From contig CACJRK010000006.1 in NCBI GenBank assembly GCA_902595795.1, forward strand, positions 1 to 60,259: DNA of 60,259 bases, written 5' to 3'. The notes under the pieces are model-generated. The model saw nothing but the letters and a program-made list of their open reading frames with translations, made no database searches and had not been told where the DNA came from. The position numbers and the translations under genes were made by a program. The stretch comes from an uncultured Pelagibacteraceae bacterium (GTDB lineage: Bacteria; Pseudomonadota; Alphaproteobacteria; Pelagibacterales; Pelagibacteraceae). Below, in pieces: positions 20,367 through 25,061 of the stretch (the first letter of the stretch is position 1; the number at the start of each line of letters is the position of its first letter).

Positions 20367-21428
20367 TTAAAAACAAACTATGTGATCAATATTAATCGGT
20401 CTTTTAATTCCAAACTTTTCGTCAGCTTCATGTTGATGTTCGTGATGAGAATGAACAAAAACTGGTATTAATAAATCGCTATTAGTTTTTAAAGTATAAA
20501 TAAAGTTTGTTCCTCTAAATTTTCGATCTACTACTTCTAGCTTTAAATTGCTTTTATCGTCATGCTCAAGATCTTCTGGTTGTAATAATAATTGTACATT
20601 TGAACCTTTTGCATAATGCTTAATAAAATTACCTTTAATTGTACCAAGATCCTCATTTTCTAATGAATTTTCACCTGTTACTTTTGCTGGAATTAAAATT
20701 CCACGATTTAAAAAATTAACCACTTCGATTGAATTTGGAAAATGATAGACATTATAAGGATCGTCAAACTGTTTTATTTGACCGTCTAATACAATTGCAC
20801 ACTTGTTTCCTAAATAAAAAGCTTCATAAGAGTCATGTGTTACAATTATTGTTGTAATTTTTAAATTACTTAAAATCTTTTTCAATCTTACTTGTATTTC
20901 TTCTTTAAAACTTTGATCAACATTTGATAACGGCTCATCTAGTAACAAAAGATCAGGTTGTGTTAGTAGAGATCTTGCAAGAGAAGCTCTTTGTGCTTCT
21001 CCAGCACTAATTTCATGAGGATATTTTTTAAGTATTTTTGAAATATCCAGCATATGTATAATTTTTTTAAAACTTAGCTTTTTTTTCTTTTTTGTTTTAT
21101 TTCTTTGAGAACCCAAAAGTATATTCTTTTCGACAGTGTAGTGTGGAAATAGGCTGTTATCTTGAAAAGCGAGAGATATATTTCTATCTTCGGGTTCAAC
21201 ATGTTTATCTTTGGAGGATATTAATTTGCCATTTAATTTAATATAACCTTTTTCAATTTCTTCTAAACCTGCAATTGTTCTTAGTATCGTTGTTTTTCCA
21301 ATTCCCGAAGGACCTAAAATGCATAAAGTATCACCTTCGTTTTCAATTAAAAATGAAGCATTTTTAACTTTTATTTTTCCTCCAATTTTGAAATCAACAT
21401 TTTTTATTTCTAAAAAATTATTTTTCAT
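20367..21428 (-). CDS. fbpC: Ferric-iron ABC transporter ATPase (FbpC/SfuC type)
   Basis: The 353-residue protein has Walker A GPSGIGKTT, Q-loop AFQDNSLFPHY, Walker B LLLLDEPLSNVD and the switch His (VTHDSYEA). The signature motif reads SAGEAQRASLARSL, a variant of LSGGQQQR common in FbpC/PotA-like proteins. A C-terminal TOBE-like regulatory domain follows residue 240. It ends with a His-rich stretch (HSHHEHQHEADE) that could bind metal. It overlaps fbpB by 4 nt and energises Fe(III) uptake. Confidence 0.9.
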   Translation of the reverse strand: MKNNFLEIKNVDFKIGGKIKVKNASFLIENEGDTLCILGPSGIGKTTILRTIAGLEEIEKGYIKLNGKLISSKDKHVEPEDRNISLAFQDNSLFPHYTVEKNILLGSQRNKTKKKKKLSFKKIIHMLDISKILKKYPHEISAGEAQRASLARSLLTQPDLLLLDEPLSNVDQSFKEEIQVRLKKILSNLKITTIIVTHDSYEAFYLGNKCAIVLDGQIKQFDDPYNVYHFPNSIEVVNFLNRGILIPAKVTGENSLENEDLGTIKGNFIKHYAKGSNVQLLLQPEDLEHDDKSNLKLEVVDRKFRGTNFIYTLKTNSDLLIPVFVHSHHEHQHEADEKFGIKRPINIDHIVCF

Positions 21429-23044
21429 TTTTCTCTCAAAATATATTTAGATGTAAACATAATAAATAAAGTTGCAATTAAAATTAAAAATAATGATGGA
21501 ACTGCTGCCGCTTCTAGCAAATCCTCAGAAGCAGATATATAAGCAGTTGTTGCAAAAGTTTCAAAATTAAATGGTCTTAAAATAAGAGTTATTGGCAGCT
21601 CTCTTATAATTTCTAATGAAATGAGTATAGCCACAAATAAAAGTGAATTTCTTAAAAAAGGAATGTGAATATTCAAGAAAGTTTTTTTCTTTGAATAACC
21701 AAGTAAATATGAACTTTCATCAACTGAAATATTAATTTTTTCATAACCTGATTTTATTCCATTAAATGCTAACGAATAGAATCTGACAAAATAAACTAAA
21801 ACCAGTCCAAGAACAGAGCCAATAAAAAATTTTTTTATAGATATAAATCCTAAAGTCTTAACAACATTATCATCAAACCAAGCTACAAATGTAATAAATG
21901 CTACTGCTAAAATAACACCTGGAATAGCATAACCTGAGATAGATATTGTAGATAAAAAATTTAAAATCTTGTTTTTTGAAACTCTATTTCCATAATTTGA
22001 AATTAAAGAAAATAAAATCAATACTAAGCTAGATAAAACAACTAAATAAATTGTATTTAATGTAAGTGAAATTGCATCAATATCAAAAAAATTTTCTGGA
22101 AATTTAATTGTCCAATATAACATTTGGCTTAAAGGAAATAAAAAACTTAAAAAGAATATAGTAAAGCAAAATATAAATGCGAAAATAGATTTTTTTCCAG
22201 ATAATGTAATTTTTTCTTTTTGTTTAAATCCACCCTTTGAATTGAAATGGTATTTAGCTTTTTTTCTAGAAAAATTTTCAATTATAAAACATGCAAATAT
22301 AAATATTAATAAGAAAAATGACAATCTATTTGAAAAAGCTAAATCATCAAAAGTGATCCATGAATTATAAATTCCTGTTGTTAAAGTGTTTATTGAAAAA
22401 AAATCAACTGCACCAAATTCTGCTAATGTCTCCATCGCTACAAGAGACAAGCCAGCAACTATAGCTGGTCTTGCAGCTGGCAATATCAAAGAGTATAAAG
22501 ATTTAAATTTAGAAAAACCTAAGCTTCTCCCTAAATCAATTAGGTTTTGAGATTGATATAAAAATGATGCTCTAGAAAGAATGTACACATAGGCAAATAA
22601 TGAGAATGAAAGCGAAAGTACCGCTCCAAGAAGACCATCAAACTTCGGAATATGTTTGTTGTATTCCCCTTCTCCAAATAAGTTCGACAAGATTGTAAAA
22701 GCTGTCCCATAATTTTCAAAAAAAGCTGTCAAAGAATATGCATAAATGTATGGCGGAACAGCAAAAGAAAGTATAAGACCCCACTTAAAAAAATCACTTA
22801 AAGGAAATTTGTAAAAAGAAACCAAGTATGCAGTTGTGGTACCTATTATAAATGTGAGGATTAAGACACAAAATAGTAATGTGAAAGAATTAAAAATATA
22901 TTCAAATAAAAAAGTCTCTTTTAATATTTTATAATAATTTGAAGTTTCCTCAAAAAAACTAAAGAAAACAGTTATGATTGGAATTAATACTCCTATAGAA
23001 ACCAATAAAGAGGATAGAAACCATATATTTAAATTTTTTAACAT
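21425..23044 (-). CDS. fbpB: Ferric-iron ABC transporter permease (two fused permease domains)
   Basis: The 539-residue protein has about twelve helices in two halves, each with an EAA loop: LIDLGRSLGFSKFKSLYSLILP near residue 170 and SVDESSYLLGYSKKKTFLNIHIP in the second half. Fused permeases of this kind are typical of FbpB/SfuB. It is 40 nt downstream of the peroxiredoxin gene on the same strand, so the transporter operon is interrupted rather than contiguous. Confidence 0.9.
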   Translation of the reverse strand: MLKNLNIWFLSSLLVSIGVLIPIITVFFSFFEETSNYYKILKETFLFEYIFNSFTLLFCVLILTFIIGTTTAYLVSFYKFPLSDFFKWGLILSFAVPPYIYAYSLTAFFENYGTAFTILSNLFGEGEYNKHIPKFDGLLGAVLSLSFSLFAYVYILSRASFLYQSQNLIDLGRSLGFSKFKSLYSLILPAARPAIVAGLSLVAMETLAEFGAVDFFSINTLTTGIYNSWITFDDLAFSNRLSFFLLIFIFACFIIENFSRKKAKYHFNSKGGFKQKEKITLSGKKSIFAFIFCFTIFFLSFLFPLSQMLYWTIKFPENFFDIDAISLTLNTIYLVVLSSLVLILFSLISNYGNRVSKNKILNFLSTISISGYAIPGVILAVAFITFVAWFDDNVVKTLGFISIKKFFIGSVLGLVLVYFVRFYSLAFNGIKSGYEKINISVDESSYLLGYSKKKTFLNIHIPFLRNSLLFVAILISLEIIRELPITLILRPFNFETFATTAYISASEDLLEAAAVPSLFLILIATLFIMFTSKYILREK

Positions 23045-23084: not shown

Positions 23085-23630
23085 TTACTTTGATGCAGAA
23101 AGATATTTTATTGTGTTTTCAGGTGTTGTCTCTATATATGGATCATCATCTGAGCCTGAATTATTAATTCCTGGCTCTTGCCACCATTTTTCAACAATAC
23201 CATCATTGATAACGGCCATATATCTCCAACTTCTTTGACCAAATCCATCATGGTCTTTTGAAATTAGCATTCCCATATATTTTGTAAAAAGTCCTGATCC
23301 ATCTGGTATTACTTTTACGTTAGAAATTTTCATCTTTTTTGCCCATGCATTCATCACATATGAATCATTTACTGAACAACAATAAATTTCGTCAATGCCA
23401 AGTTTTTTTAATTCATCAGCATTTTTTTCAAATCCAGGTAATTGTTGAGAGGAACATGTTGGCGTAAAAGCTCCAGGCAAACTAAATAAAATTACTCTTT
23501 TGTTTTTAAAAAAATCATCAGTAGACTTGTTTGTCCACTTTCCACCAATTGCACATGCAATTTCATTATCAGAAGTATCACCTTCTCTAATTCTAAAAGT
23601 TACTTGTGGTATTTTAAATCCTTCAATCAT
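23085..23630 (-). CDS. Peroxiredoxin (Prx5/AhpC-TSA superfamily)
   Basis: The 181-residue protein has the peroxidatic site PGAFTPTCSSQQLPGFEK, with Pro, Thr and Cys in the conserved spacing, and the later Arg region GFGQRSWRYMAVI. This is the Prx5-like branch that reduces H2O2 or alkyl hydroperoxides with glutathione/glutaredoxin or thioredoxin. It lies inside the ferric-iron transporter gene order and is preceded by a foldable leader (23640-23697), with no obvious Shine-Dalgarno sequence in front of the ATG. Confidence 0.9.
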   Translation of the reverse strand: MIEGFKIPQVTFRIREGDTSDNEIACAIGGKWTNKSTDDFFKNKRVILFSLPGAFTPTCSSQQLPGFEKNADELKKLGIDEIYCCSVNDSYVMNAWAKKMKISNVKVIPDGSGLFTKYMGMLISKDHDGFGQRSWRYMAVINDGIVEKWWQEPGINNSGSDDDPYIETTPENTIKYLSASK

Positions 23631-23639
23631 ATTTTTTTA

Positions 23640-23697
23640 GTACCCACGACAATTTCTAGGAAAGGGTAAAGATCCTAGAGGAGAGTGCCGTGGGCAC
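23640..23697 (-). ncRNA. Candidate structured leader upstream of peroxiredoxin
   Basis: Outer arms 23640-23648 and 23689-23697 form a 9-bp stem; inner arms 23655-23661 and 23673-23679 form a 7-bp stem with an 11-nt loop. Read on the minus strand the outer stem has a G-U pair (23695 with 23642) that would be an A-C mismatch on the plus strand, so it fits transcription towards the peroxiredoxin. It ends 9 nt before that ATG. No T run follows, so it is not a classical terminator. No known riboswitch family was recognised. Confidence 0.5.
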
Positions 23698-23718
23698 CGT
23701 CTAAAAAGAAATATATCA

Positions 23719-23904
23719 TTATTTAAAAGGAGTGAGGATGTCTAGAGCCTCGTCTTTTTCAATCTCTGATAATTTTCTATTATTTATTTTTCTCTGTATT
23801 TTTTCAACTTCTAATGAGCAAGGCCCACATGTTATCTGACCCTCAAGTGAGCCACTCGTATCAGAAGAATTATTCAAAACGGAGTTAAATAAATTCTTTT
23901 TCAC
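23719..23904 (-). CDS. Small CGPC-containing protein (61 aa), unknown
   Basis: It starts with GTG, 6 nt after the iron-binding protein's stop, and reads on the same strand. The second half is charged and helical (SLEVEKIQRKINNRKLSEIEKDEALDIL) after an ITCGPCSLE motif that resembles a thioredoxin-type or zinc CxxC site. It lacks a Shine-Dalgarno sequence and any recognised family. The absence of stops and its position between fbpA and the peroxiredoxin favour a real gene, but this is uncertain. Confidence 0.5.
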   Translation of the reverse strand: MKKNLFNSVLNNSSDTSGSLEGQITCGPCSLEVEKIQRKINNRKLSEIEKDEALDILTPFK

Positions 23905-23910
23905 TAGATG

Positions 23911-24939
23911 TTATTTCCAACCTGCTGCAGTCATTACTTCTAAAGCTGCTGCTTGATTTTTTCCATAACTAGAAACTTTAGTAGCTAGATCTTGTTTAAA
24001 ATCTAAACCTAAATTGTTTACTACCAATGGGCTTGGAGAAACACCACCTATCATTGGAAACTCAAACGTATTATTCGTAAAGTGTTCCTGTGATTCTGGT
24101 GATAATAAAAAGTCAACAAGTGCAATTGCATTTGCTTTGTTAGGCGCTCCTTTAACTAAAGCAGCACAACTGATGTTCATGTGTGTTCCTCTGCCTTGTT
24201 GGTTAGGGAAAAAAGCCTTAACTTTTTTTGCTGCTGCTTGTTGTTCTGCACCTTTTTTACCTGATAGCATAAGTGCTAGATAATAAGTATTTGCTACTGC
24301 TATATCTGCTTCTCCTGCTGCAACAGCCATGATTTGAGCTCTATCGTTACCTTTAGAGTCTCGAGCCATATTTGCAACAACACCTTTTGCCCATTCAGCT
24401 GTAGCTTTTTTTCCATTATTTTCAATTAATGAAGCTACTAATGATTTGTTATAAATGTTGCTTGATTTTCTTATTACGATTCTACCTTTCCATTTTGGAT
24501 CAGCTAAACCTTCATAAGTTAAACCAGATAGTTCTGCACCACTTACTCTTTCAGGTGAGTAATAAATAATTCTTGCTCTTTTTGCTACTCCAACCCATTT
24601 AGTAGTTCTGAAATTTTTCGGAACAGATGATTTTATTGTTGGAGAAGTTAAACCACTTTGAAGCAAGCCTTTAGCATCCATTGCGCCACATCTTCCAGCA
24701 TCCGCTGTAATATAAAGATCAGCTGAAGAATCTGCTCCTTCTTCGGCTATTCTTTTTTCTAATGCTCCTGATTTACCATTAATTAAATTTACTTTAATTC
24801 CTGTTGCTGCTGTAAATTTTCCATACATTTCAGCATCAGCCTTATAGTGTCTTGCATTAAATACATTAACTTCATTTGCAATTGCAAAAGTTGCTACAAA
24901 TAAAGATGTAATTAACGCTATAATTGATAATTTTCTCAT
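23911..24939 (-). CDS. fbpA: Ferric-iron ABC transporter substrate-binding protein
   Basis: The 342-residue protein has a Sec signal peptide (ending ATFAIA|NEV), the FbpA opening VNVFNARHYKADAEMYGKF with a conserved His-Tyr, and the twin Tyr iron-ligand motif NTYYLALM near residue 220. It binds Fe(III) in the periplasm. An AAGGAGTTTA Shine-Dalgarno sequence precedes the ATG, and two Fur-like palindromes lie 34-64 nt upstream. It heads a transcript including a small ORF, a peroxiredoxin, the permease and the ATPase. Confidence 0.93.
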   Translation of the reverse strand: MRKLSIIALITSLFVATFAIANEVNVFNARHYKADAEMYGKFTAATGIKVNLINGKSGALEKRIAEEGADSSADLYITADAGRCGAMDAKGLLQSGLTSPTIKSSVPKNFRTTKWVGVAKRARIIYYSPERVSGAELSGLTYEGLADPKWKGRIVIRKSSNIYNKSLVASLIENNGKKATAEWAKGVVANMARDSKGNDRAQIMAVAAGEADIAVANTYYLALMLSGKKGAEQQAAAKKVKAFFPNQQGRGTHMNISCAALVKGAPNKANAIALVDFLLSPESQEHFTNNTFEFPMIGGVSPSPLVVNNLGLDFKQDLATKVSSYGKNQAAALEVMTAAGWK

Positions 24940-24972
24940 TAAACTCCTTAATTATTACGTTATTTTCCAGAA

Positions 24973-24987
24973 TGAGAATTATTCTCA
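24973..24987. promoter_or_regulatory. Fur-like box 1 upstream of fbpA
   Basis: A perfect 7-1-7 inverted repeat, TGAGAATTATTCTCA, close to the Fur core TGATAATNATTATCA. It lies 34 nt upstream of the fbpA start and 1 nt from box 2. Iron-dependent repression is the expected role. Confidence 0.75.
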
Positions 24988-24988
24988 A

Positions 24989-25003
24989 TGAGAATGATTA
25001 TCA
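24989..25003. promoter_or_regulatory. Fur-like box 2 upstream of fbpA
   Basis: TGAGAATGATTATCA matches the Fur 7-1-7 core TGATAATNATTATCA at all but one of the 14 defined positions. The tandem arrangement with box 1 (16-nt centre-to-centre) suggests cooperative binding of Fur dimers over the fbpA promoter. Confidence 0.8.
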
Positions 25004-25061
25004 ATCGCAATAGTGTCGCAGATTAAACTTTATCAGTAATTCAGCAGTTTTTTGCAATTAT

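Follow-up and report, generated by a model that had tools for sequence, protein, structure and literature searches.

The hairpin that lies just before a peroxiredoxin gene in 60,259 nucleotides of Pelagibacteraceae DNA (the whole of which is called here the window) is the potC RNA, Rfam RF01751, an orphan family that is already known, and in the iron operon of SAR11 bacteria it is intercistronic, the order there being sfuC - orf61 - RNA - (prx) - sfuB - sfuA. New here are the iron-operon context, the independence of the RNA from the peroxiredoxin, the co-placed orf61, and a complementarity, present in relatives that include the probable HTCC1062 locus, between the loop of the hairpin and the ribosome-binding site (RBS) of the next gene.

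Identity and structure of the RNA

The match to RF01751 lies at positions 23634-23703 on the minus strand and scores 86.5 bits (E 2.5e-17), well above the gathering cut-off of the family, which is 44 bits. It runs the full length of the model (positions 1-70 of 70), and no non-standard pair is marked in the alignment. The preliminary description of this DNA had considered that the element might be new, an idea that the match disposes of. The potC RNA is one of 104 candidates that were published in 2010, with no function assigned to it; the ratings given there are 'y' (probably) for its being an RNA, 'y' for a cis-regulatory role, and '?' for a switch, and the taxa are 'Marine only' (Weinberg et al. 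2010, PMC2864571). The copy in the window is like the published family in its full-length match above the cut-off, in its structure, and in its marine SAR11-type host. It is unlike what the name implies, a polyamine permease, since here the RNA stands between two genes of one operon, in the company of an iron(III)-type binding protein.

The two stems described earlier within 23640-23697 are both present on the minus strand, in one hairpin that is interrupted by a single internal loop region and has no junction. The outer stem (9 bp), supported by folding and covariation, joins the 5' arm GUGCCCACG (23689-23697) to the 3' arm CGUGGGUAC (23640-23648), which ends 9 nt before the ATG of the peroxiredoxin gene. 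The inner stem (7 bp), supported by folding, joins UCUAGGA (23673-23679) to UCCUAGA (23655-23661), and between these arms is the apical loop UCUUUACCCUU (23662-23672), with its UUUACCC core at 23664-23670. Other details of the preliminary description hold as well: one pair of the outer stem is G-U on the minus strand and A-C on the other, and the 9 nt between the stem and the peroxiredoxin ATG at 23630 (positions 23631-23639, rich in A) contain no Shine-Dalgarno sequence. The minus strand folds with an energy of -30.1 kcal/mol (z -5.17), which none of 200 dinucleotide shuffles equals, as compared to -20.3 kcal/mol (z -1.68) for the plus strand, equalled by 15 of 200. The 70-nt potC RNA has one dominant fold, with a frequency of 0.65. 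The heptamer UUUACCC occurs 7 times across the whole window, where 7.7 occurrences are expected.

Covariation was assessed mainly in 23 of the 27 sequences from the genus (22 of them distinct). In this set 91.0% of the cells are paired and 12 of the 19 pairs have changed on both sides, and neither value is reached by any of 500 shuffles. When partners are slid against one another, pairing in the same set falls to 37-48%. A larger set of 58 matches (46 distinct) gives two-sided changes in 15 of the 19 pairs and 93.9% pairing, from an alignment that was fitted to the model and so leans towards structure. The outer helix is rich in G-U cells, which cannot pair on the other strand, and the sense strand is therefore the RNA. 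The structured RNA is real, conserved, and covarying, and it lies on the strand that the preliminary description had predicted. The finding by which that description would have been refuted, stems that neither covary nor are conserved in relatives, was therefore not obtained.

The RNA is present in a single copy in the source genome assembly, which is 84% complete. Of 397 Pelagibacterales genomes, 28 have matches to RF01751 (26 above the cut-off), 27 of these in the genus of the window. The one match elsewhere, from another family (L028), was dropped, as it is below the cut-off and inside coding frames. Beyond the order, a sample of 385 genomes from the class gave only the window's own genome (1/385). 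A wider covariance model built for this study (R1) found 34 matches when run over the 397 genomes, 27 of them at the places of RF01751 matches and seven of them weak (26.5-28.3 bits). The weak ones were taken as chance: five are away from the sfuC gene of their genome, and for the genomes of the other two (G387 and G089) the place of sfuC is not listed. The loci compared below were collected by means of SfuC, 80 of them named and further ones unnamed, and with E up to 0.001 R1 recovers 47 of the 80. L027 and the L089 group, relatives whose hairpin occupies the same gap and has the same loop, score 28-43 bits with R1; with RF01751 itself L027 scores 34.2 bits, below the Rfam cut-off. Twelve exact matches to the hairpin core in viral contigs were also taken as chance, since R1 aligns the core only (model positions 23-52 at most); sfuC, prx, and sfuB were sought on the stretches around them and not found. 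In the literature searched, RF01751 is named in two papers, and neither expression or probing data for the potC RNA nor any paper on the RNA together with peroxiredoxin was found.

The iron operon and the place of the RNA within it

All of the features of the operon are on the minus strand. The first gene, sfuC (23911-24939), encodes an iron(III)-binding periplasmic protein, as judged by matches to Pfam families of substrate-binding proteins (SBP) and to solved iron(III)-binding proteins in PDB (e.g., 2pt1, E 1.9e-87). It is followed by orf61 (23719-23904), a gene for a small Cys-containing protein, whose stop is just before the RNA. Beyond the RNA come the peroxiredoxin gene, prx (23085-23630), whose product is Prx5-like (Redoxin in Pfam, with PDB matches that include HI0572 and human Prx5), and sfuB (21425-23044), an ABC permease (BPD_transp_1). 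The permease scores far below the cut-offs of the NCBIfam models for PotB and PotC (31.3 of 348 bits and 20.4 of 326 bits), and this weak resemblance may be the source of the name potC. The original description of the family is said to mention both transporter and peroxiredoxin genes. Upstream of sfuC is a motif resembling a Fur box (24971-25006), a type of box that presumably binds Fur; of 152 loci, from which duplicates were not removed, 140 have GATAATNATT in the 160 nt before sfuC. Through the promoter of the operon potC would be tied to iron status, and one common transcript probably extends across sfuC and sfuB.

The last gene, sfuA (20367-21428), is an ORF overlapping the end of sfuB that was assigned by eye as the ABC ATPase, from its sequence and from the operon order given for P. 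ubique (PMC2864753). The order sfuC-sfuB-sfuA around potC agrees with that of the P. ubique iron operon, SAR11_1238-1236, whose transcripts are reported to rise under iron limitation 16.0-fold (sfuC), 10.4-fold (sfuB), and 5.0-fold (sfuA) (PMC2864753).

In all 27 loci from the genus of the window, the RNA is 3' of sfuC and of the small Cys-containing ORF, and the gene next after it is prx in 13 cases and sfuB in 14. The class of hairpins with an ACCC loop, defined by UACCC in the apical loop, takes in 73 distinct sfuC loci, in which prx is the next gene 31 times and sfuB 42 times. Copies that lack prx score close to the best that have it (91.6, 91.4, and 89.9 bits in L007, L008, and L009, as compared to 93.8). 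The preliminary description had regarded the hairpin as a leader of the peroxiredoxin gene. The RNA is not bound to that gene, and the idea of a leader specific to it was rejected on account of the patchy occurrence of prx while the hairpin persists.

Of the 80 named loci, 78 have both the hairpin and orf61 after sfuC (for L064, L080, and L088 the hairpin was identified by reading the sequence, the automatic pick having chosen a different one); L042 and L078 have neither. In 133 of 139 distinct loci, considered with no filter for distance, the hairpin starts 8-26 nt past the preceding stop, six outliers being at 39-75 nt, and the distance to the next start ranges from 0 to 456 nt, with a median of 31 (these unfiltered distances are 3 nt too small for loci without orf61). 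A filter that keeps only hairpins at most 40 nt past the start of the stop codon and at most 160 nt before the next start leaves 122 unique hairpins, for which the distance from the preceding stop is 5-26 nt (sd 4.5) and that to the next start is 5-150 nt (sd 27.7). Since the distance is tight on the one side and loose on the other, the anchor of potC is the end of the unit formed by sfuC and orf61.

Among 158 distinct sfuC genes, 127 are followed by both orf61 and a hairpin, 12 by a hairpin only, 8 by orf61 only, and 11 by neither, where a hairpin is counted if it passes a cut of -10 kcal/mol (L182 is counted as having none, though one is visible). Of the 42 ACCC loci with sfuB next, 20 have 46-150 nt between the hairpin and the sfuB start, too great a distance for a direct block. 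Within the sfuC-sfuB gaps of L001-L196, cassettes of hairpin, prx, and RBS are scattered over the tree of sfuC, a pattern that suggests, so far as sequence comparison goes, exchange by recombination.

In L042 and L078 orf61, the hairpin, and prx are absent together, and L042 keeps the first codons of orf61 before sfuB. A second hairpin is seen in L064, L076, and L080, about 65-82 nt past the stop of orf61 and before prx, with a loop around UUGUCUC and an outer stem AGUGUUC; L080 retains it although its next gene is sfuB.

The relatives of orf61 carry the motif CxPCxxECxK; a script called the gene in 165 loci, with 125 distinct proteins among them. Changes at the three codon positions number 377, 366, and 605, which favours coding. 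A comparison of orf61 with Pfam and NCBIfam found no family at E 0.001, and at E 10 the single match in Pfam is well below its cut-off. Many loci of L058-L083 and similar ones have a conserved stretch like UUCCGCAUAUCC at the 3' end of orf61, and in loci of this type the RBS of sfuB is in many cases GCGGAA, which complements UUCCGC in full, or GCGGAU, which does so in part.

The apical loop and the start of the next gene

The loop contains UUACCC in all 73 of the distinct ACCC-loop loci and UUUACCC in 66 of them. This UUACCC core is the main conserved unpaired part of potC, and the apical loop is conserved against a divergent background. Hairpins with other, unrelated loops occupy the same sfuC-sfuB gap in other lineages.

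In a number of relatives the loop is complementary to sequence around the start of the next gene, over 7-10 nt in L027, the L089 group, L179-L181, and L184. The loop sequence UUUACCC in L027 and the L089 group complements GGGUAAA just before the AUG, AUUACCC or a longer stretch in L179-L181 complements GGGUAAU(AAA) at the first codons, and CUCCUCC in L184 complements GGAGGAG. A loop of the form UUAUUACCC would pair with AUGGGUAAUAA over the start codon. The complement reaches 6 nt in L183, and in L140, which falls outside the distance filter (its orf61 having been called short), the match of loop and RBS was read by eye. Single loci are weak in this respect: mononucleotide shuffles reach complements of at least 7 nt in 0-92 of 1000 per locus, and of the 17 loci with at least 7 nt, L087 and L182 match by A and U only, the hairpin of L087 being 150 nt away.

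Considered together, true pairs of loop and RBS bind better than re-paired ones. In 40 cassette groups with the hairpin no more than 60 nt from the start, 103 of 20,000 permutations equal the true pairing (the score of the window's copy, L001, is left out of account, as stem bases enter into it). The sequence GGGTAA is found at the start of the next gene in 14 of 127 loci, all with ACCC loops (14/55, as compared to 0/72 for other loops, counts that are not independent because the loci are related and the cassettes recombine). It is found at 8 of 384 other ORF starts and at none of the 66 ORF starts in the window.

The genome of L179 has sfuC at 1180955-1181971, which abuts the gap at 1181972-1182071 that adjoins sfuC of HTCC1062 according to Meyer (2009), and for this reason the L179 genome is taken as that of HTCC1062. 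L179 is thus probably the HTCC1062 locus, with a loop that matches the start of sfuB. A structured region upstream of sfuC has been described in P. ubique HTCC1062, with a proposal of post-transcriptional control (Meyer 2009, Smith 2010). That candidate is in the same operon as potC but in a different place, the gap before sfuC (1181972-1182071), whereas potC is in the gap between sfuC and sfuB. SAR11_1237 (sfuB) is absent from the main text of Meyer (2009).

For the copy in the window, the best complement of the loop at the peroxiredoxin start is 5 nt, which 495 of 1000 shuffles equal and which is not significant. A partner in cis was sought in the window's clade, as GGGTAA and four similar words in the 4-8 kb around 40 ACCC loci, and no place was common to more than four loci, when counted in 10-nt bins (indels could hide one). 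A cis partner of the loop shared by the clade was rejected on this basis. In some ACCC-loop lineages (L089, L179, L180), GGGUAA also occurs between the Fur-like box and the start of sfuC. To judge by such matches, the sfuC message would offer the ACCC loop a possible partner at each of its ends.

Possible roles of potC

The role that I propose, and to which I would give no better than an even chance, is that of a post-transcriptional element that sets the output of the operon, sfuC as against (prx-)sfuB-sfuA. Most likely potC would act after transcription and in cis, tuning prx and/or sfuB-sfuA relative to the SfuC encoded upstream. In the window, the stem is 9 nt from a peroxiredoxin start that has no Shine-Dalgarno sequence and would be within the footprint of the 30S subunit, thereby hindering initiation, and in some sister lineages the apical loop would base-pair with the RBS or start codon of sfuB; the presumed effect in either case is on translation. 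The fixed place just past the preceding stop suggests that the 3' end of the sfuC message may be protected too.

Two kinds of known system invite comparison. The long-range pseudoknot of the E. coli infC-rpmI-rplT operon is a repressor in which a loop pairs with an RBS. The potC loops of some sister lineages are similar in that they complement the next RBS or start, and the copy in the window differs in having no such complement. In malE-malF, an intercistronic hairpin of a transporter operon is stabilising. Like it, potC lies between genes for a binding protein and a permease, close past a stop codon; unlike hairpins of that type, it retains a specific loop sequence, and its stabilising effect is putative. 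Since UUUACCC is kept even where the hairpin is 46-150 nt off, and in the window's clade with no match, the constant loop needs another explanation: a partner in trans, a protein, a ligand, or a role in 3' protection that constrains the loop. A more elaborate proposal, tentative and on balance not favoured, would place potC as a single branch within a family of intercistronic hairpins that changes fast in the SAR11 iron operon. In that family the apical loop would control translation of the permease through base pairs with its RBS, loop and RBS changing together, Orf61 would be part of the circuit, and in the window's clade the loop would have been re-used for a partner in trans.

It is also conceivable, though I think it unlikely, that potC is purely a stabiliser or processing site at the 3' end of an mRNA, making SfuC exceed SfuB and SfuA. 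The spacing of the hairpin (tight to the preceding stop, loose to the next start) and its great stability are in accord with this, as is the rise of transcripts in iron-limited P. ubique, which declines from sfuC to sfuA (PMC2864753), but stability alone leaves unexplained both the constant UUACCC loop and the matches of loop and RBS in sister lineages. The UUUACCC loop might instead be a docking site for a partner in trans, whether an sRNA, a cold-shock protein (CspE/CspL), or the Orf61 protein. I consider this doubtful, as orf61 and the hairpin are found apart in 20 of 158 loci (8 with orf61 only, 12 with the hairpin only), even though the loop is kept in a clade that shows no recurrent partner in cis, L042 and L078 lose orf61 and the hairpin together, and CspE/CspL are reported to track iron in P. 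ubique (PMC2864753).

With one hairpin, a single internal loop region, and no junction, and with the UUACCC core as its main conserved unpaired part, potC makes an improbable ligand-binding riboswitch (for iron, another metal, or a metabolite) in control of prx or sfuB. Conservation of the apical loop in a divergent background and a place before transporter genes would suit a riboswitch, and the entry for potC under 'switch?' is '?' (Weinberg et al. 2010, PMC2864571), but the loops of relatives in the same gap are unrelated, and the next start in ACCC loci is anywhere from 5 to 150 nt away. There is very little likelihood that the hairpin is a transcription attenuator or terminator: U-rich stretches come after hairpins in some other lineages, but directly 3' of the window's stem is UAAAAAAAU, where a U-run was sought and is absent, and a scan of the window for terminator-like sites lists none at the hairpin. 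An RNA thermometer or redox-sensing leader of the peroxiredoxin, suggested in the preliminary description and by the nearness of prx and its start codon to the stem, is scarcely credible, given that sfuB is the next gene in 42 of the 73 ACCC-loop loci and that a stem of -30.1 kcal/mol, with no Shine-Dalgarno sequence in it, is an unlikely thermosensor in a marine SAR11 bacterium.

The placement of potC between sfuC and sfuB ties an orphan RNA to iron uptake in one of the most abundant bacterial groups of the ocean. The probable HTCC1062 locus has a hairpin in the same gap, with a loop that matches the start of sfuB, and so the matter is testable in a cultured strain. SfuC has been proposed as a marker of iron limitation in the field (PMC2864753), and if it is true that SfuC is set apart from SfuB and SfuA after transcription, then the reading of such field-marker data would be affected.
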